The notes beneath the pieces were generated by a model that saw only the letters and a program-made list of their open reading frames with translations, had not been told where the DNA came from and did no database searches. From NCBI RefSeq assembly GCF_014211915.1, contig NZ_CP060042.1:96145-160144 (forward strand): DNA of 64,000 bases, in the 5' to 3' direction. Made by a program: the position numbers and the translations under genes. Origin of the DNA: Burkholderia cenocepacia. Lineage in GTDB: Bacteria > Pseudomonadota > Gammaproteobacteria > Burkholderiales > Burkholderiaceae. Shown one piece after another: positions 45,794-62,948 of this stretch. Every line of letters begins with the position of its first letter. The first letter of the stretch is position 1.

Positions 45794-45799
45794 CGCGCG

Positions 45800-49280: not shown

Positions 49281-49369
49281 CGGCGTGCGCGGATTTAGGT
49301 CGTGGATCGATGGGGTGTCGAGGAACAGCCAGAGAGAAAACGCTGTGATCACGTTCGGTTTGGCGGTAT

Positions 49370-49945
49370 TCGGCGGGCGCGACTTGGCGGCCGCCGATCA
49401 CGGTCTGCGCAATTTAGGATTGCGCACTGGATGGGTGGTCCGCGCGGGGCGGCGGCTGCGCAGCGGCGCGGGCGACGCCCCGCGCGGCGACTGTGCGAAA
49501 AAAGCGCGGGGCGGGCGCTCGGCGCGCTGGCTTGGTCGGGTCGGCGGCCGCGACGGTGGCGGCCGCCGTGCTCGAGCTACGCAATGCGTGCATTGCGTCT
49601 GGGTGGATGGTCCGCGCCGGGCGGCGGCCGCGGAATGGCGCGGGCGACGCCCGGCGCGGCGACAGCAGGAAAAACGCGGGAGCGCCGGCACGGTGCACGG
49701 TGCTTCGGGCCGGCGGCCGCGACGGTGGCGGCCGCCGTGCTGGAGCTGCGCAATGCGAGCATTGCGCTCTGGCTAGGTGGTCCGCGCGGGGCGGCGGCCG
49801 CGCAAAACCGCGGGTGACGCCCCGCGCGGCGACAGCAGGAAAAATGCGGGGGCGCCGGATCAGCGCTCGGAGCGGTTGCGTCGGCCGCCGCGACGGTGCC
49901 GGCCGCTTCGCGCGAATTGCGCACCGAGCAATTGCGCCGCGACGG
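49370..49945. repeat. tandem array of about 170-bp structured units (three plus a partial)
   Basis: Units begin near 49432, 49606 and 49774, after a partial unit. Each has (i) a 12-bp stem: CCGCGCGGGGCG/CGCCCCGCGCGG in units 1 (49440/49476) and 3 (49782/49818), changed on both sides to CCGCGCCGGGCG/CGCCCGGCGCGG in unit 2 (49612/49648); (ii) a GGCGGCCGC/GCGGCCGCC stem in units 1 and 2, weaker in unit 3; (iii) a terminal hairpin of GCAATGC/GCATTGC type (49579-49598, 49748-49767; variants at 49406-49426 and about 49911-49937). All reading frames through it are low-complexity Arg/Ala, so it is taken as non-coding. Confidence 0.8.
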
Positions 49946-49993
49946 ATGATGCGCGGGGCAGCGGTGCGACACCGGGGTATCAGGCCCCAGTCT

Positions 49994-50023
49994 TTTACGT
50001 TGCGCGGCCGAATTCCGTTACAC
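49994..50023 (+). promoter_or_regulatory. candidate sigma-70 promoter for the 50065-50376 gene
   Basis: TTTACG (49994-49999), 18-bp spacer, TTACAC (50018-50023), about 40 bp upstream of the start codon. Confidence 0.4.
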
Positions 50024-50064
50024 TTCGCGGCAAGGGGGAGGGGCAAGATGGAGTGATAGAGGCC

Positions 50065-50376
50065 ATGACAGCAGATGCAGGGAAGACAGCGCGCAAGCCG
50101 CGATCGATCGAAGACGAGATCGCGAGGACGGCGGCGAAGCTGAAAAAGCTGCAGGACCAACAGCGCGAGATGATCCGCAGGGAACGCGAACGGAATCACA
50201 AGGCGGTGCTCGAGCTGCTGCGCGCGGAAGGGCTCGACGAGATCCCGGCGGAACAGTGGAAAGAGCGGCTCGAGGCGGTAAAAGTCGCACTCGCGAAACC
50301 GGGTGAGACCCCGGTGCCGGCGAAACCCGCCCAGGGCATGCCGCCAGCCGCTGTCGCCGACGGCGCGTCGGTGTGA
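50065..50376 (+). CDS. coiled-coil mobilisation-type protein (TraD/MobC-like), 103 aa
   Basis: The start MTADAGKTARKPRSIEDEIA at 50065 is chosen because the longer frame enters the repeat array. Residues 15-70 form a charged coiled coil (TAAKLKKLQDQQREMIRRER), then LLRAEGLDEIPAEQWKERL. This resembles small TraD/MobC proteins of IncP/IncQ-type relaxosomes, but also generic plasmid coiled-coil proteins. It is one of the few plus-strand genes in the leading region. Confidence 0.7.
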   Translation: MTADAGKTARKPRSIEDEIARTAAKLKKLQDQQREMIRRERERNHKAVLELLRAEGLDEIPAEQWKERLEAVKVALAKPGETPVPAKPAQGMPPAAVADGASV

Positions 50377-50381
50377 TAATT

Positions 50382-50521
50382 GGGGCAATCCGGCGACGCG
50401 CGAAGTATGCGCGGAGCGGGATTGCCCCGATTCATTTGCGCAGCGCGCAAACTGGCTAACGCATTGGTCGCGGGCTGGCGGGTGGTCGCGGCGTAGCGGC
50501 GAGCGCCCGCCAGCCCGCGAC
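50382..50521. terminator. two strong hairpins between convergent genes
   Basis: GGGGCAATCC/GGATTGCCCC (50382-50391/50419-50428) right after the 50376 stop, and a perfect 16-bp arm pair GTCGCGGGCTGGCGGG (50467-50482) / CCCGCCAGCCCGCGAC (50506-50521). No T-run follows. They separate the plus-strand gene from the antitoxin gene and may act as a bidirectional barrier. Confidence 0.55.
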
Positions 50522-50540
50522 GCCGCGCAAAAATCCCGGC

Positions 50541-50840
50541 TCAGGCGTGCTCGTGTACAGGCGTCGTTACGGTCAAAGTGAGGCCGAGCGCGCGCACCAC
50601 ACGCAGGATCGTCGCGAATTCCGGGTTGCCGTGCTCGTCCAGCGCTTTGTAGAGGCTTTCGCGGCCAACGCCCGCGTCGCGCGCAATCTGCGTCATGCCG
50701 CGCGCACGCGCCACAGTGCCGATGGCTTCCTGAATGTCGGCAGAATCGCCAGTCTCGAACGAAACCCGCAGATATTCGGCCTGCGCCTCGGGCGTGTCGA
50801 GGTATTCGGCCGCGTCAAACGGCGTTGTCTTGATACCCAT
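50541..50840 (-). CDS. antitoxin of a HigBA/RelE-type addiction module, 99 aa
   Basis: Start MGIKTTPFDAAEYLDTPEAQ at 50840. The second half is an XRE helix-turn-helix (ARARGMTQIARDAGVGRESL, YKALDEHGNPEFATILRVVR). The YLDTPEAQAEYL opening is typical of the putative addiction module antidote family. It lies 1 bp after the toxin gene (toxin first, as in higBA). Confidence 0.9.
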   Translation of the reverse strand: MGIKTTPFDAAEYLDTPEAQAEYLRVSFETGDSADIQEAIGTVARARGMTQIARDAGVGRESLYKALDEHGNPEFATILRVVRALGLTLTVTTPVHEHA

Positions 50841-50841
50841 G

Positions 50842-51135
50842 TCAATCTCCCAATTGCGCCGAAAGCGCGATAGCGCGCTCAATGTCGCGCTGCTGCGTTG
50901 ACTTGTCGCCACCGCATAGCAGGATGACGAGCGTTGAGCCTCGTTGGACAAAGTAGACGCGATAGCCGGGGCCGACGTGCACGCGCATTTCGCTCACCCC
51001 GGCACCAACCGACTTCACGTCCCCGTACTGGCCGCGCGCGAGCCGTTGAATCCGCTTGGCGATCTGCGCGCGCGCGATGTGGTCACGTAGGCCGCGCAGC
51101 CATTTCGCGAAGTCGTCTGTCTGCTCGATTCTCAT
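50842..51135 (-). CDS. RelE/ParE-family toxin (HigB-like), 97 aa
   Basis: Pattern of the phage-derived killer family: DDFAKWLRGLRDHIARAQIA, IQRLARGQYGDVKSVGAGVS, ELRV-like EMRVHVGPGYRVYFVQRG and LLCGGDKSTQQRDIERA. Members cleave mRNA at the ribosome. Length is typical. It sits in the leading region, where early expression in a recipient would favour retention. Confidence 0.9.
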   Translation of the reverse strand: MRIEQTDDFAKWLRGLRDHIARAQIAKRIQRLARGQYGDVKSVGAGVSEMRVHVGPGYRVYFVQRGSTLVILLCGGDKSTQQRDIERAIALSAQLGD

Positions 51136-51145
51136 AGCCTATATA

Positions 51146-51161
51146 GTATCCCATAGGATAC
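51146..51161. promoter_or_regulatory. operator of the toxin-antitoxin module
   Basis: Perfect palindrome GTATCC-CATA-GGATAC, 11 bp upstream of the toxin start and overlapping a TACTATATA -10-like element on the minus strand. Expected binding site for the antitoxin. Confidence 0.7.
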
Positions 51162-51238
51162 AAAAGTTCAAGGTGCATTCTGGCTACCGGCCGGAGGGCC
51201 GGCGACGCGATCAGTGCGCGTCGAAGCGGGCGCGGTTT

Positions 51239-51382
51239 TCACGCGACGCGCTCGACCTCTACAAACTGCGAGCCAAAGAGCGATTCCGCACGGGTCCAAG
51301 CTTCTTCGTAACTGCATGCGTCGATGATCTCGACGTCGAATCCAGTCGCTGTCTTGTAGGTGATCGCCCACTGAGCGCGCAC
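51239..51382 (-). CDS. tiny hypothetical protein, 47 aa
   Basis: GTG start at 51380-51382 with GGAG 7 bp ahead. The product MRAQWAITYKTATGFDVEII ... SYEEAWTRAESLFGS has a compact, protein-like composition. It lies in line with the other minus-strand leading-region genes. Confidence 0.55.
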   Translation of the reverse strand: MRAQWAITYKTATGFDVEIIDACSYEEAWTRAESLFGSQFVEVERVA

Positions 51383-51439
51383 GTCAAATCTCCTTCGTGA
51401 AGTCCCGCTATAACGGACGCGGGTTGCGTCGATGACGCG

Positions 51440-51661
51440 TTATTGCGAAAACGCGCCATCGAACACGGCGCGTTGCGTGTCGGACAGGTGCGTCGCGTCG
51501 ATCTGCGTAGCGCCGTTCACGATCATCAGCGCGTAGGGTTCGGCAAGAATCCGCGCTTCGCGACACAGGATCGGATCGCCTTCGACGCTCGGTTTGCGGG
51601 CGCGCCAAATGTTGATCGCGCGCTCGATCTGCTCGATATGCAAAACTGTGGTGATGTTCAT
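51440..51661 (-). CDS. DUF3717 domain protein, 73 aa
   Basis: Start MNITTVLHIEQIERAINIWR at 51661. The pattern IERAINIWRARKPS, REARILAEPYALMIV fits DUF3717, a small family frequent in Burkholderia. Function unknown. This is one of the taxonomic hints for the window. Confidence 0.75.
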   Translation of the reverse strand: MNITTVLHIEQIERAINIWRARKPSVEGDPILCREARILAEPYALMIVNGATQIDATHLSDTQRAVFDGAFSQ

Positions 51662-51705
51662 CGCTTTCGCTCCGTGACGTGCGCCGTGTTCGCGACGCAC
51701 GCAGG

Positions 51706-52185
51706 TTAGTCGATGCATTCGTCGAAGTGCCAGCGCGATTCCATTTCCTTGGCGGCACCGATTGCCTCCTGAAGTGTCGCGCGCGGATGGCCGGCGTTCG
51801 GCTCGCAATCGCCGCCCCGATGAGAGACTTCGAGGGCAGGGACATAGCCGTCCCGGGTAAGGCTTACGCTCGGGCGCGTTTCGTTCAACCCGTCCATGTC
51901 GTTGAGCCATTCCCCGAACCAAACGACTCGACCGCGTTCCTCGGCTTCGAAACCGTCATCCCAATGCGGAATCAGACTGGGCTCGCCCGCCAGCAAGAGC
52001 GACATGTCGGCCCCTTCGAGGCATGCACGTGCTCCGCTCGCGCGGGCGCAGATTTCAGCATCCCAGAGGTATTGCTCGGCCTTATCTTCGTTGCCGGCAG
52101 TTACAGCGATGCGAAACAGCGCAAGTTGCGCGCGCGCTTCGAGGGCAAAATCGAAACTGTCGACGGGAGTGCGATCAAATTTCAC
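51706..52185 (-). CDS. hypothetical protein, 159 aa
   Basis: GTG start at 52183-52185 with GGAG 6 bp ahead; the longer open frame overlaps the next gene. Helical N-terminus (FDFALEARAQLALFRIAVTA) and an acidic, Trp-rich middle (LIPHWDDGFEAEERGRVVWF, GEWLNDMDGLNE). Soluble, probably early-expressed. Family unknown. Confidence 0.6.
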   Translation of the reverse strand: MKFDRTPVDSFDFALEARAQLALFRIAVTAGNEDKAEQYLWDAEICARASGARACLEGADMSLLLAGEPSLIPHWDDGFEAEERGRVVWFGEWLNDMDGLNETRPSVSLTRDGYVPALEVSHRGGDCEPNAGHPRATLQEAIGAAKEMESRWHFDECID

Positions 52186-52231
52186 GGTTCGCTCCGATCG
52201 GCGCGCCAGCGTCGGCGCGCCCGCAAAATGG

Positions 52232-52498
52232 TCAATGGAAGATGCCGAGTGCTTCACGGATGACGCGTTGAGCGCTCGCAGCGCCGTAGCGCTCGCCCCG
52301 TGCGTACGCCTTTTCGTAGACCTTGATCGCGACATTGATTTGCCACGCGGTCCAGTCGATCGTGGGCAGCGAAAATGCCAGTTCGCCGTCGTCGCCATGA
52401 TGTACCGCGATGGAGGGCGCAGCACTTTCGCAGCGCGCAATCGCGAAAAAACCTTCCGTGATACCTTCGATCATCAGTTCGTCAGTCTCGTAGCTCAT
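52232..52498 (-). CDS. hypothetical protein, 88 aa
   Basis: Start MSYETDELMIEGITEGFFAI at 52498 with CGGAG ahead. Soluble, mixed composition (WTAWQINVAIKVYEKAYARG). In line with neighbours and probably in the same transcript from the palindrome at 52826-53036. Confidence 0.6.
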   Translation of the reverse strand: MSYETDELMIEGITEGFFAIARCESAAPSIAVHHGDDGELAFSLPTIDWTAWQINVAIKVYEKAYARGERYGAASAQRVIREALGIFH

Positions 52499-52512
52499 CG
52501 TGAATCTCCGGG

Positions 52513-52801
52513 TCATTGCCAAACCGGCGACCACGCGCCGGACGAAAGGCGAAACAGGGTGATGCGCCGAGCGCGACCGTCGATGCTCGTTTCGAGCCGC
52601 ACGGCGCGCGCGTCGTCATCAGGGCGGGTCCAGCGGTACAAAACACGAAACGGGGCATCAACCGGGCAGCCGAGCCAGTGCGCGGCGGTCACGCGCAGGC
52701 GATTTTTCGTGTGTCGAATGCCTGCCTGGCGGTGAGCCTCGGGGGTGCGGGGGAACGCCCGCGCGTGTGTGCGTGATTCGGTCGGGGGTGGTTGTGCTCA
52801 C
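52513..52801 (-). pseudogene. small protein sharing its leader with the ParB-like gene, frameshifted in this sequence
   Basis: GTG start at 52799-52801 (AAAGGACG ahead) gives MSTTTPDRITHTRAGVPPHP. The credible C-terminus (TKNRLRVTAAHWLGCPVDAP, FRVLYRWTRP, ITLFRLSSGAWSPVWQ) is in another frame. The junction is the G5 run at 52741-52745. Two added bases (as in a run of seven) or one removed join them as PPHPPEAHRQAG. The ParB-like protein has PPHPPEAHRTAD at the same place. Repaired length is about 96 aa. Function unknown. Confidence 0.6.
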
Positions 52802-52825
52802 GATTTCGTCCTTTTGTGTCGGGTT

Positions 52826-53036
52826 GTGGATCTGCCATTGGGAGCCGCCTCGACGCGGGTTTAGCGCGGGCAGGCACGGGTGCAAGGGCGCGCCCGGAGG
52901 CCGCATGCGGAGCGCAGGCGTAGCCGAGCACCGAACGGGTGAGGACGTGGGCGGAGCGAAGCGCAGCCTTTACCCTTGCGCCCGTGCCTGCCCGCGCTAT
53001 GCGTCGAAAAGGGGCGGCTCCCAATGGCAGATCCAC
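52826..53036 (-). promoter_or_regulatory. giant palindrome HP1, candidate single-stranded-DNA promoter (Frpo-like)
   Basis: Arms 52826-52888 and 52973-53036 pair over most of their length around an 84-nt loop. The right arm carries TTGCGC (52976-52981), 16 bp, TATGCG (52998-53003). The left arm carries the complement of TTGCAC, 16 bp, TAAACC (52858-52885), so the -35 is paired and the -10 is mispaired. If the plus strand folds on itself, RNA polymerase would start leftward into 52801 and the genes below it. The structure starts 24 bp upstream of that gene. Confidence 0.72.
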
Positions 53037-53232
53037 GCGCTTAACCCGGCGCAAAAGGATGGAGCGCAACCACGCGGTTTCCCCGGCCGGATCGCGCACA
53101 CGGCGCGGGGCAGCCGGCCCCGCGCCCCCTCGGCCGGCGTAGCCGGCCGCTAGACCTGCTGTCCGCCCGCGAGTAGCGGGCGCGTACTCCACGAGCAAGC
53201 GAAGCGCGCAGCGCCGGCACGGCGCGCAGACG
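53037..53232. other. GC-rich hairpin cluster between HP1 and the 93-bp element
   Basis: Several short strong stems (GCGCGGGGC/GCCCCGCGC near 53103-53126, GGCCGG/CCGGCC near 53132-53148, CCCGC/GCGGG near 53166-53180). Frames here are low-complexity. No gene supported. Confidence 0.4.
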
Positions 53233-53325
53233 TCAGGGATTGAAGCCCGTAGGGGCGAGACTCGCGCAGCGAGGCTCGACGCGCAGCGCGAAAGCCCGGC
53301 CCGGAGCGAAGCGGAGGGAGACGCC
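53233..53325. repeat. 93-bp conserved structured element, copy 1
   Basis: Begins TCAGGGATTGAAGCCC and ends near GGAGACGCC. Copy 2 at 61496-61589 differs at only about six positions plus one inserted G. Internal stems include GGGATTGAAGCCC, CGAG...CTCG and CGCGCAGCGCG. It sits on the right side of palindrome HP1, as copy 2 does with HP3. No reading frame is conserved, so it is likely an RNA or DNA structure. Confidence 0.75.
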
Positions 53326-53538
53326 CGAGCAGCAAGTCAGGGAAGTGCCGCCAGCGCATGCGCCACAGCGACGGGCGCGCATGCGCAGCATCGGAAAGGT
53401 GATCCTTTACGGGAGCGGCAGAGAATCGGAAAGTGAGAACTTTCGGGAGTAGATCATCATGCTGCGTACGGCCCGCCGAAGGACACTGACCGGCACGCCG
53501 CACCAGCGGGCGCGGCGCACCCGCTGGCGTCGATCAGG

Positions 53539-55666
53539 TCAATCTCGCGGCGGCATGCCTTCGCCTTCCGCTACAGACGCGTCGTCGCGGACGTCGTCGG
53601 CCGACGCAACCAACGCAGGCTCGTCGGCCTCCGCTTCCTCGGCGCTTTCGTCGGCATGCGACGCCTTCGCCGGAACGTCCCACAGCTTCATCCGCACGGC
53701 TTCGGCCGTGACGAAATGCTCGGGCAACCAACCGCGCCCCGCGATCAGCCGTTCGGCCTCGGTCGCCGCGTCCCCCTTCTTGAGCTTCGCCACGCGCATC
53801 GCATCGGAAGGCGACACGGCCGCGCTCACGACGTCCACGATCCGATCTTTCGAAACGTGGTCGAAGTAGCCCGCCTTCGTCGGTTGCCACGCATCCGCGA
53901 GATTCAGCCCGAGCGCCGGGATCAGTGCGTTGATCGCGTGCGGCCGCTCATCCGGGCGCACGCTGTCCACGCTCGCCGCGACGTACTGCGCGAGGATCAG
54001 CAGCAGGCGCTCGTCGGTCTGCTCGATCAGCCAGCGCAGCAGCGCGTCACTGTCATTCGGGATGACGCCTCCCCAAACCCGGCGTTGCTCTCGCCGCATC
54101 GTGAACGCAAGGTCGTCGTCCAGTTCCGGCGCATGCTTCGTCAGGTTGTGGGAGTGGTCACGGAACGTCACGTCCAGCGCGCTCCCTTCGGTACTGTGGC
54201 CGTACTCGCCCGCCAGCAGCCGGTGCACGAGCGCGGCGAGCGCGACGTGCGGCTGCTGCGCGAGGGCGGCGGCAACGGCCGCCGTGCGATGCGCGTTCAG
54301 GCGCAGCGTCAGCCGTTCGGAGTGCGGCCCCTTCGCGGGCTTCACAGCCGACGCGGCGACGCGCGCGGGCTGACCATCTGACGAGTCGTCGTCATCGTCG
54401 TCACCATTCTCGCCACTTTCGGTCGTCGCGGCTGCAACCGGCTCACGCGCAACGAGTCCGCGCTCGATCACGGGCTCGCCGTTCGCATCGAGCGAGAGAA
54501 GCGCGCCAGCCTGCGCCATGTCGTCGGGATGGTAGACGAGCAATGACCCCTCGATCTCGTCCTGACGCATGCTCAACGCGCCTTCTTCCAGTTCCAGCCG
54601 CTCGGCGGCTTCGTCGTCCATGTCGTCGGCTTCCCACTGTGCCGCGATCTCGGCCAGCCGCTGATCGATCGCCGCCAGTTCTTTCGCCACCTCATCGGTG
54701 GGTTCCGTTCGACGCGGCAGCACCGGGCGAAATTGCGACCGCGTGGCATGGTCCCGTTCGGGCATGGCTTTCACCCACGCCCAGCCTTCGGCCAGCACGG
54801 ACGCGCCGAGGGCTTCCAGTTGCTCGGTCGCGAGGCGCAGCATCAGCGCGTGATCGCGATACCACGCATCCTCGGCTGCGGAGAACAGGTCGCGTCGCAC
54901 TGCACCGCCAGCCGCTTCGAACGCCTCGACGCCGACGAATTTCGCGACGCGGTTGCTCACGAACGACTGTTCGTCGCGCACGAAGCGGCGGCGGATCGCG
55001 TGCGCGTCGCGGTTGTACGGCTCGGCGTCGAACCACGCGGCCTCTTGCTCGTCGTGACTGTCCGACAGCGCGAGCGCCTGCATTTGATCGAGCTTGATCT
55101 CGCCGGTGCGGAACAGGTCGACCAGCTTCGGAGAGACGCGCGCGAGCTTGAGGCGGCGCTGCACAGTTTTCGGATGCACGCCGTACAGGTCCGCGATTTC
55201 CTCGATCGACCGACCGGATTCGACCAGAATCCGGTAAGCGTCGCACGCGTCGGCCGGGTGCATCGGTTCGCGCATTTCGTTCTCGGTTGCCGACAGCAGC
55301 ACGGCGTCCTCGACCGGCACGACCCGGCAGCGCACCGGGTGGTCGGCGGGGATGTAGTCGTGTTCGAACAGGTAGATGAGCGCGAGGCGGCGGCGTTCGC
55401 CAGCGGCCGCGCCGAACGTCTGCGCCTTCCGCGCGCCGACCTTCATTGGATGGACGATCAGGTTCTGGAGCAGACCGACTTTCCAGATATTGAGAGCGAG
55501 TTCCTTGATGCCGGTGGGCGGCACGCGCCGCACGTTGTAGGGGACGCGACGAGCCGTTTGAGCGGGATGTCGCGCAGCTCGTCTGCCGTTCGGTGAGCCT
55601 CGGGGGGTGCGGGGGAACGCCCGCATCGTGGGCGAGGGCCGGGATCTCGGTGGTCACTGCGTTCAT
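53539..55666 (-). CDS. ParB/Spo0J-family leading-region protein (two frameshifts in the N-terminus), about 710 aa
   Basis: The start MNAVTTEIPALAHDAG at 55666 has GGAGG ahead. A ParB N-terminal domain follows: DIPLKRLVASPYNVRRVPPT, VHPMKV, GERRRLALIYL and ENEMREPMHPADACDAYRIL, then a KorB-type helix-turn-helix (EIADLYGVHPKTVQRRLKLA). A long C-terminal region contains an acidic run (GENGDDDDDDSSDGQ). Two N-terminal frame changes at G runs 55602-55607 and 55540-55543 are each cured by one added base. Such ParB-like proteins without ParA are common in conjugative leading regions. Palindrome HP2 lies 30 bp upstream. Confidence 0.88.
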
Positions 55667-55695
55667 AAAAGCCTCCATTACGTCGGGGTGGAAAA

Positions 55696-55880
55696 AGCTG
55701 CCATTCGGAGCCGCCTCGACGCATGGGGAGTGCGGACGCGCAGGCACTGCAAGGGCGCGCGCAAGGCCGCAGCGCCGCGGCCGCCAGGCCGGGCGACCGG
55801 GCGCCGCGCGCGGCAGCGCGAACCCTTGCGGTGACGGCGGGCCGCACTATGCGTCGGGATGAGGCGGCCCGATGGCAGCT
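55696..55880 (-). promoter_or_regulatory. giant palindrome HP2, candidate single-stranded-DNA promoter for the ParB-like gene
   Basis: Arms from 55696 (AGCTGCCAT...) and to 55880 (...GATGGCAGCT) pair imperfectly. The right arm has TTGCGG (55826-55831), 16 bp, TATGCG (55848-55853). Opposite the -10 the left arm reads (complement) TCCCCA, so the -10 is unpaired while the -35 (TTGCGG against TTGCAG) is nearly paired. The outer stem sequence (GCCGCCTCGACGC, TGGCAG) is shared with HP1. Confidence 0.7.
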
Positions 55881-56365
55881 GATGCGCCGACGGGGGAGGC
55901 TGGAACGCGGGGACGGCTGCCGAGGCCCGGACGTCGCCGGCGCCGGGCCGCTCGCGCGGCCCGAGCGCGAACTCCGCGCGGCTCGCCGCGCGGCTGGCGG
56001 GGCGGCCAGCGCCGGGGCCGGACGCCGGCGGCGGCCGAGCCCCAGGAGCGGACAGCCCGTTTCTCTGGCGCGCGGGTGCGTGCGGCTTGCGTGCTTGGCG
56101 CAGCCGGGCGCGCAAGGTGCCGCGCGCCGGCTGGATATTGGGAACGGTGAAGATCTACCGCGGCCAGCTGGGGCGAGCAGTCCCCGCCCGCGCCGGCCGC
56201 TCGATGCGGGCGGGGTGGGCCGCCCCGGATCAGTGGTACATCTCGTGGTACGGAATCGGCCTTCCGCGTTCCAGGCGCCGGCCGGGCCCGCGGGCCCACG
56301 CCGGCGGTGGAACATGGTCTAGCGGCGAACGCCGCCGGCGCCAGGCGCGCGCCGGCGGCCGCGCC
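55881..56365. other. 485-bp extremely GC-rich spacer without a supported gene
   Basis: Made of GGC/GCC-rich blocks with many short inverted repeats (for example GGCCGCTCGCGCGGCC near 55951). Frames are Arg/Ala/Gly low-complexity in all directions. Possibly a structured region on the transferred strand. Confidence 0.4.
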
Positions 56366-56554
56366 TCACTTCGAAGCGTTTCGGCGCCCTTCAATAACGC
56401 CAGCGTCGTACGCCGCGACCAATGCGGCACGGATACACCAGACGGCACAGTCGTGGAAATCCAGCCGGTCGCTGTAACGCGTTTCAAGCGTGTCGATGTT
56501 CAGATGGATACGCGCGATCGCAAACAGCAACATTTCGAATTCGCCTTTGTTCAT
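56366..56554 (-). CDS. DUF6900-like small protein, 62 aa
   Basis: Start MNKGEFEMLLFAIARIHLNI at 56554. The pattern IDTLETRYSDRLDFHDCAVW, CIRAALVAAYDAG fits the small plasmid family I know as DUF6900. Role unknown. Confidence 0.65.
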   Translation of the reverse strand: MNKGEFEMLLFAIARIHLNIDTLETRYSDRLDFHDCAVWCIRAALVAAYDAGVIEGRRNASK

Positions 56555-56606
56555 GGGTGTCTCGGCAGAGGCCTGCCGCGGGCAAAGCCCGGGCAGGCGG
56601 GTGAAT

Positions 56607-56774
56607 TTATCGCCGGGCGCACTGACCGGCCTGGAACGCTTCCAGCATCGCGTAACGCAACGACGCCGGCAGGACTTCAATTTCCGCGTCGGAATCCCAT
56701 ACGTCCGAGATCTCCGGGCCGAAGGCGTTGGCTGCGATCGCGGCCAAAATTGCATCAATCAAATATCGGGGCAT
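56607..56774 (-). CDS. small hypothetical protein, 55 aa
   Basis: ATG 56772-56774 with GGAG 6 bp ahead. MPRYLIDAILAAIAANAFGP starts a short helical, acidic protein (VWDSDAEIEVLPASLRYAML). In line with the genes downstream of the methyltransferase. Confidence 0.6.
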   Translation of the reverse strand: MPRYLIDAILAAIAANAFGPEISDVWDSDAEIEVLPASLRYAMLEAFQAGQCARR

Positions 56775-56823
56775 GCTGATCTCCAGGTGTGCCGGCCGCG
56801 GCCCGCGGCCGGCGCTTGTGTGG

Positions 56824-57330
56824 TCAAGAGAGCTGCACTGCGCCGCAGTTCTCGGCCAGGCAGAAGGCGAAATACCAATTTCGGTACAGCTCGGCGAACA
56901 GGTGATCGCAATCGGCGTCGATTGCCCCAAGGAACTGACTGAAATCGTCGGCCAGCTTTGCGGAAGTCCGAGATCCGAGCGTTCCCGACGTGATCGAGAA
57001 ATCGATCAGTTCCTTGAACGGGCCGTCCTTTGCCGCGATCGCGCCGTTCGTATGGCAGATTCGCGCGGCGCCGATCGAGATCGCCGGGTAATCGGCGAGC
57101 TCGGCCAGGCGCTCGCGGAAAATGTCGTGCATGACGTAGGTGCCGGCGCTGAATTCGAACGAATTCCGGTACCGATAGATACGCGCCATGTCCAGGTCGC
57201 TGGCGCGGTGCGGGAACCGCACCGCGGCGTCGAGGCGGACGCAAAACACGTCGACAGGGTCGCCGTTTTCGTTCGTGCGGGGATGGTCGAGCTGCTCGAG
57301 ACCGGAATAGGCTGAAACGATCAGTTGCAT
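56824..57330 (-). CDS. hypothetical leading-region protein, 168 aa
   Basis: Start MQLIVSAYSGLEQLDHPRTN at 57330. Soluble. Conserved-looking blocks are VDVFCVRLDAAVRFPHRASD, IYRYRNSFEFSAGTYVMHDI and FAELYRNWYFAFCLAENCGA. It is 23 bp downstream of the methyltransferase gene and so probably in its transcript. Function unknown. Confidence 0.65.
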   Translation of the reverse strand: MQLIVSAYSGLEQLDHPRTNENGDPVDVFCVRLDAAVRFPHRASDLDMARIYRYRNSFEFSAGTYVMHDIFRERLAELADYPAISIGAARICHTNGAIAAKDGPFKELIDFSITSGTLGSRTSAKLADDFSQFLGAIDADCDHLFAELYRNWYFAFCLAENCGAVQLS

Positions 57331-57353
57331 GATGAATGTCCTCTGTTCGGGTC

Positions 57354-58019
57354 TTAGGCGGCGGCCAACGCGGCGCCGGCGACGGGCGCCGTCAGGCGCG
57401 CCTTGGCGGCCGCAAAGTAGGTCGCGTCCAGTTCGATGCCGATATACCGGCGCCCGAGCTCGCGGGCGGCAACGCACGTCGAGCCGGAGCCGGCGAACGG
57501 ATCCAGTACGACGTCGCCGGGCTGCGTAAAAGCGGAAATGAGTGTGCACAGCGCGGCGACCGGCTTTTCGGTCGGATGGTGGCGATTGCCGCTGTACGGA
57601 AACGGCATGACGTCGGCGATCGGCGCCGCCGGCGCCGCGGGCCGGCCCTTGGCGAGCAGGTAGGCCGATTCGTGCTGGTACTTCACCAGGCCGGCCTTGG
57701 ACGCGTAGGACTTCGTGAAGACGAAGTGGCCGGCCACGCGAAAGCCGGCGGCTTTCCAGGCGTCGAAAAACAGGTCGACCTTGTTCCAGCCGTAGAACGA
57801 AATGCAGACGGCATCGCGTTTCAGGACGCGGAACATTTCGGCGAACGCCGGCGCCAGCCAGTCGCCGTTCACGTCGTTCGCGATCGAGCGGCCGCTCCGA
57901 TCGCGAAAATTCACGAGGTAAGGCGGGTCCGTCACGATGCAGTCGACGGATTCGGGGGCGAGTTTGGGCATGGCGACCAGGCAGTCGCCGTTGTACAAAT
58001 AGCTCACGGTCAGCTCCAT
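57354..58019 (-). CDS. orphan adenine-specific DNA methyltransferase (beta class), 221 aa
   Basis: Start MELTVSYLYNGDCLVAMPKL at 58019. Motif IV is VTDPPYLVNF (DPPY at residues 31-34) and motif I lies near the C-terminus (LDPFAGSGSTCVAAREL), the motif order of beta-class N6-adenine/N4-cytosine enzymes; DPPY favours adenine. No restriction endonuclease gene is adjacent. In a leading region it could methylate the newly made duplex and protect it from host restriction (inference). HP4 lies 49 bp upstream. Confidence 0.9.
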   Translation of the reverse strand: MELTVSYLYNGDCLVAMPKLAPESVDCIVTDPPYLVNFRDRSGRSIANDVNGDWLAPAFAEMFRVLKRDAVCISFYGWNKVDLFFDAWKAAGFRVAGHFVFTKSYASKAGLVKYQHESAYLLAKGRPAAPAAPIADVMPFPYSGNRHHPTEKPVAALCTLISAFTQPGDVVLDPFAGSGSTCVAARELGRRYIGIELDATYFAAAKARLTAPVAGAALAAA

Positions 58020-58067
58020 AGAGTCGAGATAGGGGCAGCCGGAGCGATGCGGCTCGCAAACCGTGCT

Positions 58068-58253
58068 ACCCGGAGCTGGCGAGCGCCCGCAGGGGAATGG
58101 CGGGCAAGGGGACCGTGGAATACCGGAGTGCGCGAAGCGCGCGAGGATATGCCGCGAAAGCCCCTTGCAGGAGCGGGGCGCCGTGCGACATTGGTCGCGC
58201 ACGGCGCAGCGGTCCGTCCGCCAGGACACGGCGGGCGAACGTGGGCTCCGGGT
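58068..58253 (-). promoter_or_regulatory. imperfect giant palindrome HP4 upstream of the methyltransferase gene
   Basis: Arms near 58068-58127 (ACCCGGAGC ... CGCCCGC ... TGGCGG ... GGACCG) and 58210-58253 pair in blocks, and an inner hairpin GCGCCGTGCG/CGCACGGCGC (about 58177-58206) caps it. A TTG-N16 motif is present only in the left arm, so the promoter signature is weaker than in HP1 to HP3. Confidence 0.5.
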
Positions 58254-58456
58254 TGAAAGGTCGACGGCAGTCGAATACCGGAGGAAGGGGACGGAGCTGA
58301 AGGGCGCAGCGGACCGACGGTGCTGCGTCCTGGTCATGAGCGCCGCAGCGATCTCCGATCGCGCGGCGCGATCGCGATTCCGTCAGCGCGGCCGCGAGAG
58401 CGGCCGCCGCGCAAACTCGCCCATACGACGGCCGAGCAGAGTGAGGTACTGCAGCG
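58254..58456. other. 203-bp spacer right of HP4
   Basis: Rich in CGATCGCG-type palindromes around 58345-58375. No gene supported. Confidence 0.35.
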
Positions 58457-58918
58457 TCAGAACAGCGCCAACTGCTGCGGCTCGAAGCGCCGGTCTTTGC
58501 TCTGCACGTCGACGTCGCTCGCGAGCAGCTCGATCGATGCACCGTCGGAGTCCTCGACGCTCGCGTCGAGCGGAATATGCGCACCTCGCGCGGCGTCGGC
58601 CGCACCAATACGCTCAAATTCCGCACGCGTAGCGGCCAAAAGGGCACGCGTGGCATGCTCCGGCAGTACGCAGTCGGCCGACGCGTACTGGCCGTCAAAG
58701 AATCTTGTTACGCCATATCTTTCTCCGCCGCCGTGCCTCGGCCGGTATACGACCAGAGCGATACGATCGGCATCGCGCCGACCGTTGGTCCATCCCACTG
58801 GCCCGCAAGGCACTAGACCACATTCGGCGGCGATCGCCGCGCCGCGCGCGATCAGATCGGCGTGCGCCCGGTCGATGACGCGATGCAGATTGGGCATCTT
58901 CAGGAAAAGCTGATTCAT
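58457..58918 (-). CDS. hypothetical leading-region protein, 153 aa
   Basis: Start MNQLFLKMPNLHRVIDRAHA at 58918. Soluble, with blocks DADRIALVVYRPRHGGGERY and FDGQYASADCVLPEHATRAL, and an acidic region (LDASVEDSDGASIELLASDV). End of the transcript unit that begins at HP3. Function unknown. Confidence 0.6.
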   Translation of the reverse strand: MNQLFLKMPNLHRVIDRAHADLIARGAAIAAECGLVPCGPVGWTNGRRDADRIALVVYRPRHGGGERYGVTRFFDGQYASADCVLPEHATRALLAATRAEFERIGAADAARGAHIPLDASVEDSDGASIELLASDVDVQSKDRRFEPQQLALF

Positions 58919-59030
58919 TGGGGTCTCCTGGTCGTGCTCGGGGTAGCGGAACCACGACGGCCGGCTGCCCCGCAAAATGTGAGATCGCGCACCATCCATC
59001 ATCACCAAGTGCGCGACGATCGGCGTCAGC

Positions 59031-59312
59031 TCACCGGGAACTGTCGGGACGCTCCCGCCACGCCTGCACCTCGTGAACCTTCACGAGCTCGAACGGGGTC
59101 TCGCCGTCAGGCTCGACACCAGGGTTCTCCAGAATGACGCGCAATGCATCTGCGTCGCTCAGGGCGGCCAGGGCCGTCAGAAGCTGCTCGCGGCCAGCCT
59201 TGCGCGCACGAGCCCACTCGCTCCCGTCCTCGTCGTTCCAATCCGGCACGGTGCGCAGCTGAAGGCCATACGCGCGGGCGGCTTCAATTGCGGCAGTTTC
59301 GATCGCTGTCAT
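59031..59312 (-). CDS. small hypothetical protein, 93 aa
   Basis: AGGAG lies just ahead of tandem ATGs at 59315 and 59312. Acidic and helical (MTAIETAAIEAARAYGLQLR, LLTALAALSDADALRVILEN). Soluble. The acidic character could suit a DNA mimic, but there is no direct support. Confidence 0.55.
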   Translation of the reverse strand: MTAIETAAIEAARAYGLQLRTVPDWNDEDGSEWARARKAGREQLLTALAALSDADALRVILENPGVEPDGETPFELVKVHEVQAWRERPDSSR

Positions 59313-59335
59313 CATTCGCTCCTTGGGGATTCCGG

Positions 59336-60001
59336 TCAGTGGACATCGCGCCGTACGAACAGTCGCGCGGCCGTGGCCGAACGGGGAAAGCCGTGCACGT
59401 CGGAGGTCTCGGCAAGCATTGCGGCGACATCCATCTGCACGTTGGACCCCGAGCGAAGGCTGCCCGCCCGGTGCACGCCGATCACCTCGAGCAGCTGCAG
59501 GTTCCCCGCGCGATATCCGTCGACCGTCATCGAGGCGCGCACGTCCGGCGCCAGCCGATCGCCGTAGCGCGACGCGAGCCGCGCGAGCGCACGCTCAATC
59601 GCGCGATCGCTGAACTGTCGCGACAGCGCGATCCGATCTGCAGCGAGACGAACCGTCTGCCGGCCGCTGGACGTCAACATGAAGTGTTCGACGCGCTCGA
59701 CCCTACCGCCGTCTGCCAGACGCGTGGCCTGCAGCGGCATCACAAGGCGCGCAACCTGCACGTCTCGGGGGCCGTCGGTCCATTCGATGCTCAGCTGCGT
59801 GCCGTGTTCGTTCTTCGCGACGCGCACCGCGAACGACGTCGCGGGGAACCCTTCACGCAACACGCTCTGCACCAACTGCGCGGTCTCGACAAGCGTCAGC
59901 ACGTCGGCGAGCACCGCGGGCGCGGTGGCGGATTCCCGGCTGACCCGCGCGCGGACGGACTCGGAAATTTGGGTATGGCGATCTGCAATGTGATGGAACA
60001 T
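59336..60001 (-). CDS. LPD29-domain protein, 221 aa
   Basis: Residues about 35-85 (LTLVETAQLVQSVLREGFPA, TSFAVRVAKNEHGTQLSIEW, TDGPRDVQV) match the pattern of large polyvalent protein-associated domain 29, found in big proteins of phages and conjugative elements. The C-terminal half is Arg/Ala-rich. Role unknown; associated with early-entering functions of mobile elements. Confidence 0.65.
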   Translation of the reverse strand: MFHHIADRHTQISESVRARVSRESATAPAVLADVLTLVETAQLVQSVLREGFPATSFAVRVAKNEHGTQLSIEWTDGPRDVQVARLVMPLQATRLADGGRVERVEHFMLTSSGRQTVRLAADRIALSRQFSDRAIERALARLASRYGDRLAPDVRASMTVDGYRAGNLQLLEVIGVHRAGSLRSGSNVQMDVAAMLAETSDVHGFPRSATAARLFVRRDVH

Positions 60002-60074
60002 GTTGAACCTCGAATGATGGTGGACGGGACAACGTGAGGCGAGGGCGCCGGCGGCGGCCGCCGGCGCATTCGGT

Positions 60075-60902
60075 TTAGCCCTTCAGCTTGCGCATCTCTT
60101 CGGCGAGCACCCACATGGCGCGATTCAGGCGGAGATCCTGATCAATGCCGGTCACACCGCGTGTCGACATCCGACGACCAGTGGCCGAGCGACCACGCAA
60201 TCCGCCCTTGATCACGTTCTCCTGCACGCGCTGGAACGTAGTCCAGAGGTCGGGGCGGTTGTCTTCGGTGCGACGCGCGCGAAGCAGCTGATCCTCGGTG
60301 ATCGGCGCGGGCGCTTCGGTCACGTCGTACCGGAGCGCCAGCACCGACCGCGCAAACGCCTGTTGCTCGCCTTCATCGAGCTGCACGGCTTCCATCTCGC
60401 TCTTGCATTCGCGGATCAGGTCGAACCCGTCGAGCACCTCGTGCGCGCCGTCGACGACGTGGTCGACGACGTCGCCCTTGTGCGGCACCCGGATGTCGTG
60501 CGTCGTGTCGCCGAATACGAGACCGTTCTGGCAGACGAACCGGAAGTAACCGGCCAGCATCTGGTAGCTGCTCGACCCATCGTGGCTGTTGAGGAGGATG
60601 ATTTCCGGGGTTTCCGGCGACGCGACCTGCGACGCGTGACGCAGCCGGAGCATGTGCTTCGTATGCTCGCGCTTCGCGTCGACGCGCACGCGGGTCTGGC
60701 AAACCATGAAGGGCTGGAACCCTTCTGCGCGCAGCTTCGTGAGGATCTCGATGGTCGGAATGTACGTGTAGCGGTCCGACCGTGAGTCGTGCTTGTCGGC
60801 CGCGAAGATCGACGGCGCGACCTCACGAATCTGCTCATCGGAGAGCGGCGTGTTCGAGCGAAGGATCGGGGCGTTACTGCCAAACTTGGTTGCGAGTTGC
60901 AT
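60075..60902 (-). CDS. DUF932 family protein, 275 aa
   Basis: Start MQLATKFGSNAPILRSNTPL at 60902. DUF932 features: RYTYIPTIEILTKLRAEGFQ, HTKHMLRLRHASQ, IILLNSHDGSSSYQMLAGYF, FRFVCQNGLVFGDT. Full length for the family (about 270-300 aa). DUF932 genes are frequent in leading regions and phages, with unknown activity. It is followed downstream by the LPD29 gene. Confidence 0.9.
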   Translation of the reverse strand: MQLATKFGSNAPILRSNTPLSDEQIREVAPSIFAADKHDSRSDRYTYIPTIEILTKLRAEGFQPFMVCQTRVRVDAKREHTKHMLRLRHASQVASPETPEIILLNSHDGSSSYQMLAGYFRFVCQNGLVFGDTTHDIRVPHKGDVVDHVVDGAHEVLDGFDLIRECKSEMEAVQLDEGEQQAFARSVLALRYDVTEAPAPITEDQLLRARRTEDNRPDLWTTFQRVQENVIKGGLRGRSATGRRMSTRGVTGIDQDLRLNRAMWVLAEEMRKLKG

Positions 60903-60962
60903 GGTTTTCTCCGTTGAAGATTCAGGTTCGATGCGGGTCGTTCAGGAATTCGCTGGCGTCCG

Positions 60963-61094
60963 TCAACACCAGACGACGTAGTCGTAAGCGACGGTGCGCC
61001 GGTAGTAGTTCCGTCCATCCCACGGCGTGTACGTGTATTCCATGTACGCACAGTGCAGGACTACTATCCAATGGTGCAGTCGGTTCGTTTCCAT
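60963..61094 (-). CDS. tiny Tyr/Trp-rich protein, 43 aa
   Basis: ATG at 61092-61094 has a near-perfect ribosome site (GGAGGTCACG). The product METNRLHHWIVVLHCAYMEY ... DGRNYYRRTVAYDYVVWC is unusually rich in Tyr/Trp and begins the HP3 transcript unit, 60 bp before the DUF932 gene. Not a known family. Confidence 0.6.
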   Translation of the reverse strand: METNRLHHWIVVLHCAYMEYTYTPWDGRNYYRRTVAYDYVVWC

Positions 61095-61204
61095 CGTGAC
61101 CTCCATCTGCGGTTGGTTTGCTCTTCAGGCCGACCGGGACCCAAGATTCCGAGTCCCCACGTAGGGGTTGTGCCGGTGCTGCCTGGACTTCGGCAGAACT
61201 GCTG

Positions 61205-61405
61205 CCGCCAGTCCCCTGAGTTCGTCGTCCCGCGACTGAAGGAGCCTGCCGGCGGGCGTGTTCAAGAGCGGTCGCAAAGCCGCACGCGGAGCGCAGCCCG
61301 TAGGGCGAGCACCGAACGGGTGCCGCGGCCGGCGAAGCGGACCCTTGAATGCGAACGACGGTGGGCTACGGTCGCGTTTGGGACGGCGAGCTCAGGGGCT
61401 GGCGG
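61205..61405 (-). promoter_or_regulatory. giant palindrome HP3, candidate single-stranded-DNA promoter
   Basis: Arms 61205-61271 and about 61342-61405 pair (CCGCCAG, CCCTGAG, CGTCCC and TTCAAG blocks). The right arm has TTGAAT (61345-61350), 16 bp, TACGGT (61367-61372). The left arm complement reads TTGAAC, 16 bp, TCCTTC, so again the -35 pairs and the -10 does not. The loop shares GAGCACCGAACGGGTG and CCGCA(C/T)GCGGAGCGCAG with the loop of HP1. Confidence 0.7.
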
Positions 61406-61495
61406 TACGCGAAAAGTTGAGACAGCACCGGCTCGCCGCGCGGCGAGCGCCCAATCGGGGCGGAGCCCCGGCTGTATAGGGGTATCGGGTTTGCG

Positions 61496-61589
61496 TCAGG
61501 GATTGAAGCCCGAAGGGGGCGAGACTCGCGCTGCGAGGCTCGACGCGCAGCGCGAAAGCCCGGCCCGTAGCGAAGCGAAGGGAGGCGCC
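61496..61589. repeat. 93-bp conserved structured element, copy 2
   Basis: Second copy of the element at 53233-53325 (TCAGGGATTGAAGCCC start, GGAGGCGCC end), 90 bp to the right of HP3. One substitution turns the middle GCGCAGCG to GCGCTGCG without affecting the flanking stem. Confidence 0.75.
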
Positions 61590-61696
61590 CAGGGCCGACG
61601 GCAAATCCCACACGAACGCGTGGAACGGGGAGCGCGGCGGCAGAAGGCATGTGGATACGCGAAGCAGGGCGAGCTCGCCGGCGGCGAGCGCCCCCT

Positions 61697-61763
61697 CTCG
61701 CGGCCCCAAGGCCGCGAGACTGGATAGGCAGGTCCGCGTGTCGCGGCATCAACGCGACACGCG
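61697..61763. repeat. two perfect inverted repeats upstream of the 61810 gene
   Basis: CTCGCGGCC-CCAA-GGCCGCGAG (61697-61718) and CGCGTGTCGCG-7 nt-CGCGACACGCG (61735-61763). The second is followed by TTGCGCTATGCT and could be an operator or the start region for the plus-strand gene at 61810. Confidence 0.5.
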
Positions 61764-61809
61764 GTTGCGCTATGCTTTGGTGTGATCGTGTGAAATCAGA
61801 GACGAGTCG

Positions 61810-62274
61810 ATGCTCATTCGAGAACAGGGACGCCTCATCAAGGTGCTGCGCGTCGAACCTCCCACACCGCCCCGGACCAGGGGGCGTCGGCGCGAACACG
61901 TGCTCGGCACGTTTCGCGCCGACGGGCCGATACCGGCCCAGCTGCTCGATGCACTGAGCCGTGACGAGCGCAAAGCGCTCGCGCGCTGGCTCGAGGTCTA
62001 CCGAGAGGGCCAGCGGCGCACGGATGCACGCACGACGCTGGCCGCCGCGCCTGCGCAGCTCGAGTCGCTCGTCAGCGCACTGGAGGTGGCGGCTGATACA
62101 TTGTCGGCTGCCGAGGCGGACCACCTGTGGGCGCAACTGCAGGCGATCGCGCGAACGTTGAGGCGCGCCGGCCACCCGCGGCCGCGCGCGGCACGGCGGC
62201 CGCCGGCGCCGATACCCGGGCAGCAAGACTTCTTCGGCGACCTAGACGAGCTCGAGCAGCTGGCTGAACAGTGA
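61810..62274 (+). CDS. hypothetical helical protein, 154 aa
   Basis: Start MLIREQGRLIKVLRVEPPTP at 61810. The central 80 residues are amphipathic helices (LLDALSRDERKALARWLEVY, LESLVSALEVAADTLSAAEA), followed by a basic linker and a short acidic tail (PGQQDFFGDLDELEQLAEQ) that could be a peptide-binding motif. First rightward gene beyond the minus-strand leading block. Function unknown. Confidence 0.65.
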   Translation: MLIREQGRLIKVLRVEPPTPPRTRGRRREHVLGTFRADGPIPAQLLDALSRDERKALARWLEVYREGQRRTDARTTLAAAPAQLESLVSALEVAADTLSAAEADHLWAQLQAIARTLRRAGHPRPRAARRPPAPIPGQQDFFGDLDELEQLAEQ

Positions 62275-62447
62275 GTTCGCTCCCTTCCTCGCAAACCACC
62301 ATGCATCCACACCGTATCGTCGAAGACAAAGGCCGCACGCGGATCCCGACTCAGCATCTCAACGATCAGGGGGGCCAGCGCTCAACGTGGCTGCGCTGGT
62401 GTCTACGCGCGCTCCGTGTCTTCAGAGCAGCACCCAAGGCCCATTGA
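62271..62447 (+). CDS. small hypothetical protein, 58 aa
   Basis: GTG 62271 overlaps the previous stop (GTGA). MSSLPSSQTTMHPHRIVEDK then a basic, Trp-rich end (RSTWLRWCLRALRVFRAAPK). Coupling supports it, but evidence is thin. Confidence 0.35.
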   Translation: MSSLPSSQTTMHPHRIVEDKGRTRIPTQHLNDQGGQRSTWLRWCLRALRVFRAAPKAH

Positions 62448-62492
62448 GAGGCTTGACGAAAGATCGCCATGTCGAATCGACGCGGACCTTCA

Positions 62493-62621
62493 TCACGACG
62501 ACACCAGCAGTCCGCGCATGCGAAACTCGCCCGTACCTTGTTGCTGCCGATGGCCCCACGCGCCGATGGCGAATGCCGCGAGGACGAACGCGGCAGATAA
62601 CACGAGTGTGATGGGATTCAT
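62493..62621 (-). CDS. tiny membrane protein, 42 aa
   Basis: MNPITLVLSAAFVLAAFAIG forms a single membrane helix, followed by a polar end (HRQQQGTGEFRMRGLLVSS). No strong ribosome site. Composition, rather than context, supports it. Confidence 0.35.
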   Translation of the reverse strand: MNPITLVLSAAFVLAAFAIGAWGHRQQQGTGEFRMRGLLVSS

Positions 62622-62948
62622 GGTTACGCTGCGTTTCGGTGACGACAACCTGGCGCATGAGCGAAGAGGCGCACTGCATCTCGGGTCGTCTTGGGCGTTC
62701 TGGCAACAGGGGCAGAAGCCCTGATGCGAGCGTGCGCCCTATCGCCATGCCGATCGGTACGGTGCCGTACCTCGATCGCGCGCGCTGCGCTTGCGTGACC
62801 GGATAGCGAAATATCGGGCGATCCGGTGTTTGAACGACGTGCAGCGCACCACGGAACGCTTCCCGGAGACTGTTCTTCAGCGTACCGACTCGACGAGCCC
62901 GCGCGATGCACGATGACGTTCGTCACGTTCTTCAGCCGGGAGCGGTTA
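62622..62948. other. 327-bp spacer without a supported gene
   Basis: Frames on both strands are open in places but lack starts and protein-like composition. No hairpin or repeat stands out. Confidence 0.3.

Follow-up and report, generated by a model that had tools for sequence, protein, structure and literature searches.

Introduction

The closest described counterparts of the elements reported here are Frpo1 and Frpo2 of plasmid F and ssi1–ssi3 of ColIb-P9, stem-loops of the transferred strand (T-strand) that lie in the leading region, upstream of gene groups transcribed toward the origin of transfer (oriT). Without Frpo1 or Frpo2, the tested leading genes of F showed no significant early rise in fluorescence (PMC9849209), and Frpo is credited with both priming and promoter roles (PMC7736820). 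Counts of single-strand promoters in recent surveys come from BLAST searches with five known Frpo/ssi sequences and additional candidate sequences (PMC11541004, PMC12826799). The IncN plasmids pKM101 and R46 also carry repeated sequences upstream of leading-region anti-restriction genes, and these repeats (CUP) are bound by ArdK (PMC6289460). Here we analyze the leading region of a Burkholderia cenocepacia plasmid and four hairpins within it, P1–P4, of which P1, P2, and P4 are probably single-strand promoters of the Frpo type.

The stretch analyzed (hereafter the window) comprises 64,000 nucleotides (nt), positions 96,145–160,144 of contig NZ_CP060042.1, which is 160,144 bp long and belongs to a genome of 7,607,708 bases. 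Window positions 46000–64000 are 100.0% identical over their full length to B. cenocepacia HI2424 plasmid unnamed1 (18,001 versus 18,007 bases), and the two therefore differ by a few small indels. Gene annotation was taken from the HI2424 record, whose offset to the window is about 40,999, and MOB-suite types that plasmid as conjugative, MOBF, and MPF_F.

Results

Minus-strand gene groups and their upstream hairpins

All 17 annotated coding sequences in 50541–61094 lie on the minus strand, and the sole plus-strand gene, 50065–50376, stands just outside, as the initial annotation had described. The genes form four groups, each with a hairpin 23–110 nt upstream. P1 (52826–53036, plus strand, 211 bp) precedes seven genes that run from 52803 down to 50541, with 23 nt between the hairpin base and the first start codon. 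P2 (55696–55880, plus strand, 185 bp) precedes the ParB-like gene, alone in its group, at 29 nt as measured from the ATG at 55667 instead of the HI2424-annotated start. P3 (58060–58261, plus strand, 202 bp) lies 53 nt upstream of the methyltransferase gene and three small genes, and P4 (about 61205–61405, plus strand, 201 bp) lies 110 nt upstream of a group consisting of a 43-aa gene, the DUF932 and LPD29 genes, and the genes for two proteins that match no family of known function. The arrangement of minus-strand groups with upstream hairpins is confirmed. A palindrome had been ascribed to each of four groups, including one for toxin-antitoxin genes; this holds for P1–P4, and no separate palindrome precedes the toxin-antitoxin pair, which is placed last in the P1 group.

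An F-like oriT/nic region lies at 48768–48795 on the plus strand, where the inverted repeat GCAAC-gga-GTTGC is followed by GTGGTGTGTGACC. The sequence GCGTGGTGTGTGACC is found at 48777, 3′ of this repeat, and the 160,144-bp contig contains a single match to the pattern GCGTGGNGTG[TG], on the plus strand, and none on the minus strand. The plasmid F counterpart of the motif, GCGTGGGGTGTGG, is located on the presumed T-strand of F (minus strand of locus L018), and the nic-region sequence of Burkholderia glumae (L026) is the same as that of the window. R388 shares the gene order, with the relaxase on the left, and a hairpin-plus-nic region on the plus strand in the orientation seen in the window. 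Since the F-like nic motif and the R388-shared layout point the same way, the plus strand rightward of about 48787, the predicted nick site, is likely the T-strand and would enter the recipient first. This agrees with the proposal that the plus strand enters from 48788 rightward. With 17 of 17 coding sequences on the minus strand and the nic-like site on the plus strand, the transferred strand would be the template of the leading-region genes.

Candidate promoter boxes on the 3′ arm

P1, P2, and P4 carry TTG-N19-TA on the plus-strand 3′ arm. The boxes of P1 (52976–53003) are TTGCGC (52976–52981) and TATGCG (52998–53003), those of P2 (55826–55853) are TTGCGG (55826–55831) and TATGCG (55848–55853), and those of P4 (61345–61372) are TTGAAT (61345–61350) and TACGGT (61367–61372), each pair being separated by 16 nt on the plus strand. 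The −10 of P1 sits at an asymmetric internal loop. The boxes point into the genes in the folded T-strand, whereas they point away from the genes in the duplex. In the predicted folds, a −35 and a −10 are reconstituted in the stems of P1, P2, and P4 and not in that of P3.

We scanned the compared loci for CAAGG followed by CCTTG where the complementarity extended over a long stretch, and this returned P1, P2, and many related elements. A strict search for CCTTG and its CAAGG arm (score at least 14) across the entire contig returned P1 and P2 only; P3, which is laid out differently, was not returned, and P4 was missed because its CAAGG reads CAAGA and was then added by hand. Alignment of 39 Burkholderiales and Pseudomonas elements on CCTTG left 22 non-redundant elements at 80% identity. 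CTA occupies positions 24–26, after CCTTG-N18, in all 22 of them; CCTTG was required by the search, and CTA was not among its criteria. The spacer is near-random (mean 0.33 bits per column, columns 8–22), and it pairs with its own 5′ arm at 72%, compared with 30% when the arms are swapped between elements.

The two arms are not equivalent at the −10. The in-register hexamer opposite the −10 differs in 22 of 22 elements, since that arm has mismatches or extra bases, and a 4–6-nt bulge follows directly after the −10 in 20 (judged by eye). TA is present at the −10 place on the T-strand arm in every element and on the complementary arm in three, with mean matches to TATAAT of 3.09 and 2.00, respectively. 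A mini-hairpin, GCGAAGC, before the −35 was considered as a universal feature and rejected, as only 9 of the 22 elements have it.

Folding and covariation

The plus strand of each region was folded with DNA energies, the check suggested along with the initial annotation, and compared with 300 dinucleotide shuffles each. The z-scores were −10.9 for P1, −6.8 for P2, −4.7 for P3, and −2.7 for P4, and the observed long-range pairs were reached by none of the 300 shuffles for P1 and P2, by 43 for P3, and by one for P4. P1 and P2 are thus exceptional by folding alone, P4 is modest, and P3 is not exceptional in long-range pairing. Among non-overlapping segments of the 160-kb contig ranked by energy corrected for G+C content, P1 is first, P2 third, and P3 27th, and P4 falls outside the top 30. 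Folding energy alone was rejected as a detector because a repeat near oriT outranks P2 and neither P3 nor P4 is among the 18 best places by long-range pairing.

Compensatory changes were found in all four stems, affecting 16 of 66 pairs in P1, 17 of 50 in P2, and 10 of 66 in P3 (nine sequences each) and 17 of 64 in P4 (11 sequences). For this comparison, RNAalifold was applied to chosen relatives with RNA energies. P3 and P4, weak on energy alone, appear to be real structures on this comparative evidence. Scans of the window against Rfam at the gathering threshold and for tRNAs gave no match.

Specificity and spread of the box pattern

The pattern CCTTG-N18-CTAY-N1-2-GTCG occurs three times in the 7,607,708-base genome, always on the plus strand and always in P1, P2, or P4, and the reversed pattern does not occur. 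A phylum-level search of 398 genomes found it only in this genome, a result of little weight because representative genomes may lack such plasmids. Among 398 Burkholderiaceae genomes, 15 contained a total of 18 matches to a longer 3′-arm pattern, against two for the reversed control. An upstream complementary arm with a stem score of at least 20 accompanies 16 of these matches, and the two without it are both on C1 contigs. At CCTTG sites away from palindrome centers, which served as the control for this score (n = 103), the mean was 3.5 and the maximum 25; 14 of the 18 matches exceed that maximum.

The left neighbor gene is on the minus strand in all 41 listed elements (median gap 99 nt, maximum 332), and the right neighbor in 32 of them (median gap 439 nt). 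This count includes P3 and P4 and retains near-copies.

Comparison with Frpo, ssi, and other leading-region elements

Placed here by their positions and mutual similarity (PMC9849209, PMC10104558) rather than by published coordinates, the regions of Frpo1 and Frpo2 and the three repeats of ColIb-P9 show no BLAST similarity to P1–P4 at word size 7 (best E-value 0.084). Sequence homology of P1–P4 to Frpo/ssi is rejected on this ground, and we therefore class P1–P4 as presumably working like Frpo rather than as its homologs. Likeness to Frpo and ssi3, which the initial annotation had invoked as precedent, thus extends to stem-loop geometry and not to sequence. P1–P4 also lack meaningful BLAST similarity to R46 (best E-value 0.032), and homology to the IncN CUP repeats is likewise rejected. 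In titles, abstract openings, and selected passages of the literature on Frpo-like elements in Burkholderia, R388, and IncN, no description of P1–P4 or their relatives was found; some members of the P1/P2/P4 family may be among the "distant" Frpo candidates of PMC11541004.

A companion element links the Burkholderia hairpins with F. It lies 3′ of P1 on the T-strand (53233–53326, plus strand, repeat D6), where it begins with TCAGGGATTGAAGCCCG, and 3′ of P4 (61496–61590, plus strand). Its 17-mer TCAGGGATNGAAGCCCG has only two copies in the genome, one lying 197 nt to the 3′ side of P1 and the other 91 nt to the 3′ side of P4. The leading region of F, which like the window has DUF932 and ParB-like genes, carries the same 17-nt motif on the T-strand at the 3′ ends of both the Frpo1 and Frpo2 regions (L018 13154–13170 and 18542–18558, minus strand), and, by eye, F and Burkholderia resemble each other over about 90 nt surrounding it. 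The 17-mer is also present in plasmids of J2315, B. cenocepacia toggle3, B. ubonensis, and Massilia. It was found in 11 of the 54 loci compared, several of them copies of the window's own region, and a 126-base companion query matches 608 plasmid records by BLAST. The shared element therefore ties the Burkholderia hairpins to the tested Frpo elements independently of hairpin sequence. A replication-start or terminator function is possible for it.

Unannotated hairpins of the same type as P1, P2, and P4 stand upstream of anti-restriction genes in F (L018 11343–11750) and ColIb-P9 (L021 12059–12463 and 19745–20098). The F element, at 56342–56749 of the plasmid record upstream of an anti-restriction gene, matches P4 with an E-value of 0.002 and R388 with 6e-4; ColIb-P9 has two copies of it, one directly upstream of ardA. 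When 321 bases of the F element served as the query, at least 5000 plasmid records matched at 80% coverage. These F and ColIb-P9 hairpins resemble the P-elements in having a complementary CAAGGG arm and a mispaired −10, with TA one base closer, and differ from them in arm sequence and in lacking the 4–6-nt bulge after the −10. As a further likeness, F, ColIb-P9, and R388 have a GGCGAAGCGTACCCTTGC block, and a 70–90-nt loop block matches R388, PromA, and small mobilizable plasmids. R388 has two loop-block copies in its leading region (L020 19852–19948 and 23858–23954), one of them on the promoter side of an ardC-like gene; expression of ArdC is needed in the recipient (PMC7213743).

P3 and exchangeable loop modules

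P3 has a conserved fold and no canonical −35/−10 boxes, and we do not call it a promoter. Its inner loop module, GTGGAATACCG...GGATATGCCGCGAAAGC, is invariant in nine of nine aligned sequences, including that of Pandoraea. The module recurs upstream of the F methylase gene (E-value 1.3e-4 to P3) and also forms the loop of the P1 ortholog in J2315 and B. ubonensis, and loops therefore seem to have been exchanged between elements. A loop module GTGGAATACCG...GGATATGCCGCGAAAG (window 58115–58176; L022 5344–5520) is seen in both P1-type and P3-type hairpins, and part of it lies upstream of the F methylase gene (L018 8998–9028). In a 2,569-bp mobilizable Salmonella plasmid (L012 487–790), both loop types stand back to back in one 300-nt palindrome.

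Genes of the leading region

The methyltransferase of the P3 group (57354–58007, minus strand), whose alignment includes the DPPY motif, shares 99% identity (215/217) with a J2315-plasmid methyltransferase and 62% with the methylase encoded in the leading region of F. The J2315 enzyme is taken to be M.BceJIII because it is the sole annotated methyltransferase in the J2315 stretch examined. M.BceJIII has a reported single-strand-specific m6A (N6-methyladenine) activity. Both this enzyme and M.EcoGIX are reported to methylate single-stranded DNA, and the strand entering the recipient appears to be a target of M.EcoGIX (PMC7736820). Frpo/ssi is reported upstream of the E. coli gene for M.EcoGIX, whereas P3 is a different sequence.

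The DUF932 protein of the P4 group (60075–60902, minus strand) is 55% identical to an F leading-region DUF932 protein, which we take to be YgeA from its place behind Frpo1; deletion of YgeA lowers conjugation (PMC9849209). The ParB-like protein (53539–55667, minus strand), compared in the version annotated for HI2424, shares 31% identity with its counterpart in the F leading region. Its frame near the N-terminus (about 55500–55750) is split in this assembly and annotated as intact in the HI2424 record, and the start at 55667 was our choice; the HI2424-annotated start would fall within hairpin P2, and the true start may therefore be further downstream.

The P1 group opens with a 96-aa protein of no known-function family (52513–52803, minus strand) and closes, at its distal end, with a RelE/ParE-type (Gp49-like) toxin (50842–51135, minus strand) and the antidote of an addiction module (PF21716; 50541–50840, minus strand). 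The P3 group has a 168-aa protein after the methyltransferase (56824–57330, minus strand), for which no domain was found in the query scan and which has 17 listed homologs, none informatively named and the named ones from Burkholderia or Paraburkholderia. An LPD29-domain protein (59336–60001, minus strand) belongs to the P4 group. Pfam or NCBIfam scans covered 16 of the 17 leading-region proteins, all but the 47-aa protein of the P1 group, and gave no match or only domains of unknown function for the unnamed proteins. PADLOC, run on 10 of the 17, matched the methyltransferase and, weakly, the antidote, and PHROGs, run on eight, returned one unknown family, for the LPD29 protein. Several proteins of unknown function had been proposed as candidates for anti-defense or establishment roles. 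This suggestion fits the methyltransferase and, through their F homologs, in part the DUF932 and ParB-like proteins; the rest, the toxin-antitoxin pair apart, match no family of known function.

Other features around oriT

On the trailing side of oriT, 42899–48302 (minus strand) encodes a MobF (TrwC/MobF) relaxase, a coupling protein, and a small accessory protein. To the right of oriT lie three G+C-rich repeats of about 170 nt each that fold strongly (49426–49937), and an inverted repeat with 27-nt arms (93%) 93 nt apart stands between oriT and these repeats (49134–49280). A compact hairpin with 26-nt arms (88%) at 50467–50521, between the plus-strand gene and the toxin-antitoxin pair, is possibly a two-way terminator.

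Discussion

We consider P1, P2, and P4 to be probable Frpo-type single-strand promoters. The initial annotation had proposed this function for all four hairpins; the fixed boxes, the orientation, the covarying stem, and the unique pattern speak for it in P1, P2, and P4, and P3, which has a conserved fold and no such boxes, is at most a candidate. In the proposed sequence of events, the relaxase would nick the plus strand near 48787 and lead it into the recipient with its 5′ end first, and each hairpin would fold while emerging there. The folded 3′ arm would serve as the non-template strand, with −35 (TTG...) and −10 (TA...) 16 nt apart, and the 5′ arm as the template. Host RNA polymerase would start near the hairpin base, at positions estimated as about 52845, 55715, and 61231 for P1, P2, and P4, run off leftward, and transcribe the minus-strand genes from the incoming strand. 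With the −10 unmatched in register and the 4–6-nt bulge present in 20 of the 22 elements, the site of initiation may already be open. Second-strand synthesis would then convert the hairpin to a linear duplex, in which the boxes point away from the genes. Expression would stop at this stage, given that the boxes face away and that the gene-facing arm lacks TA in 19 of the 22 elements. The outcome would be a short burst of DUF932, ParB-like, and other establishment proteins, joined by the methyltransferase if P3 works likewise, and the transcripts may also prime second-strand synthesis.

Several observations weigh against this interpretation or narrow it. The boxes are weak relative to the E. 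coli consensus, the −10 matching 3.1 of 6 positions and the −35 consisting of TTG plus variable bases. The last T of the −10 is present in 14 of 22 elements on the T-strand arm and in 11 on the other, and when the −10 hexamer is shifted freely, the T-strand arm is better in 14, worse in five, and equal in three; the arm asymmetry therefore rests on a fixed −10 position. Gapped alignment pairs much of the −10 region, with columns 24–26 paired at 77% and the A of TA unmatched in 11 of 22. P1 and its relatives carry TA on the complementary arm too (TAAACC, TAAAAC, or TAAAAA), and P1 might therefore also act as a duplex promoter. P4 has CAAGA where most relatives have CAAGG, and its −35 stem is one pair shorter. 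P3 has CGACATT at the −10 place in lieu of canonical boxes, and it and its orthologs stand outside the 22-element set. Eight of 47 rows were set aside before the 22 elements were counted: by eye, Massilia fits, the three rows of F and ColIb-P9 fit with a spacing smaller by one base, R388 reads GTA, and no fit was seen for L012, pIPO2, or one of the pP33-1 copies. The longer 3′-arm pattern has no match in the genome that contains P1–P4, and neither P2 nor P3 has the companion 17-mer. Of the eight relatives searched, B. glumae has the nic-like motif and the other seven gave no match, and the transfer direction among these relatives therefore rests on gene layout.

The hairpins might mainly be single-strand initiation sites at which primase, a primosome, or RNA polymerase primes the second strand and expression is secondary, a role already credited to Frpo alongside its promoter function. 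The loop modules are more widely conserved than the stems, with the 70–90-nt block recurring in R388, PromA, and small mobilizable plasmids and a second loop type that is unchanged across all nine P3 sequences and recurs upstream of the F methylase gene. These features, and the structured companion element nearby, would suit such a site. However, priming needs neither the box spacing nor the nearness to start codons nor the matching gene orientation, yet all of these are conserved, and we regard this explanation as rather unlikely. The elements might instead be conventional double-stranded promoters whose palindromes act as operators and which a plasmid-encoded repressor silences once the plasmid is established. 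The ArdK-bound CUP repeats of IncN plasmids are a precedent, and the TTG and TA on the complementary arm of P1 relatives would be compatible with this reading. P1–P4, however, show no meaningful similarity to R46, the gene-facing duplex strand lacks TA in 19 of 22 elements, and arms of 60–80 nt with compensatory changes go far beyond an ordinary operator; this possibility seems to us improbable.

Read in the duplex, the boxes would drive transcription rightward, either of an antisense RNA or of a plus-strand gene such as 61810–62274 to the right of P4, with the palindrome serving another purpose. Since a minus-strand gene is the nearest right-hand neighbor in 32 of 41 cases and a rightward promoter would need no arm complementary to its spacer, such a role is very unlikely. 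Their several copies per plasmid and the apparent exchange of loops between orthologous positions might suggest that the palindromes are selfish repeats, such as miniature mobile elements. This is hardly credible, because their place upstream of similar genes, their orientation, and their box spacing are conserved in plasmids of different species, and the 7.6-Mb genome has no further copy of the box pattern.

Returning to P1, P2, and P4 as single-strand promoters, we lean toward the broader proposal that they represent a second general family of conjugation-activated promoters of this kind, distinct in sequence from Frpo/ssi. Its traits would be TTGNNN/TANNNN 15–16 nt apart on the 3′ arm, an unmatched −10, exchangeable loop cassettes, and the companion element. 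Such a family would span plasmids of Burkholderiales and Pseudomonas as well as R388 and would include the unannotated hairpins that precede ardA and other anti-restriction genes in F and ColIb-P9, and Frpo would be one branch of a common Gram-negative mechanism of conjugation. Since the known F and ColIb-P9 regions do not find P1–P4, the reach of gene expression in the first minutes of conjugation may be underestimated. Box spacing and arm asymmetry offer a sequence test for single-strand promoters, and the signature points to genes, including several that match no family of known function, that plasmids may switch on before they become double-stranded. The analysis also provides a conserved candidate hairpin for the J2315-type methyltransferase group, and it proposes specific candidate promoters for two anti-restriction genes, ardA of ColIb-P9 and the ardC-like gene in R388.

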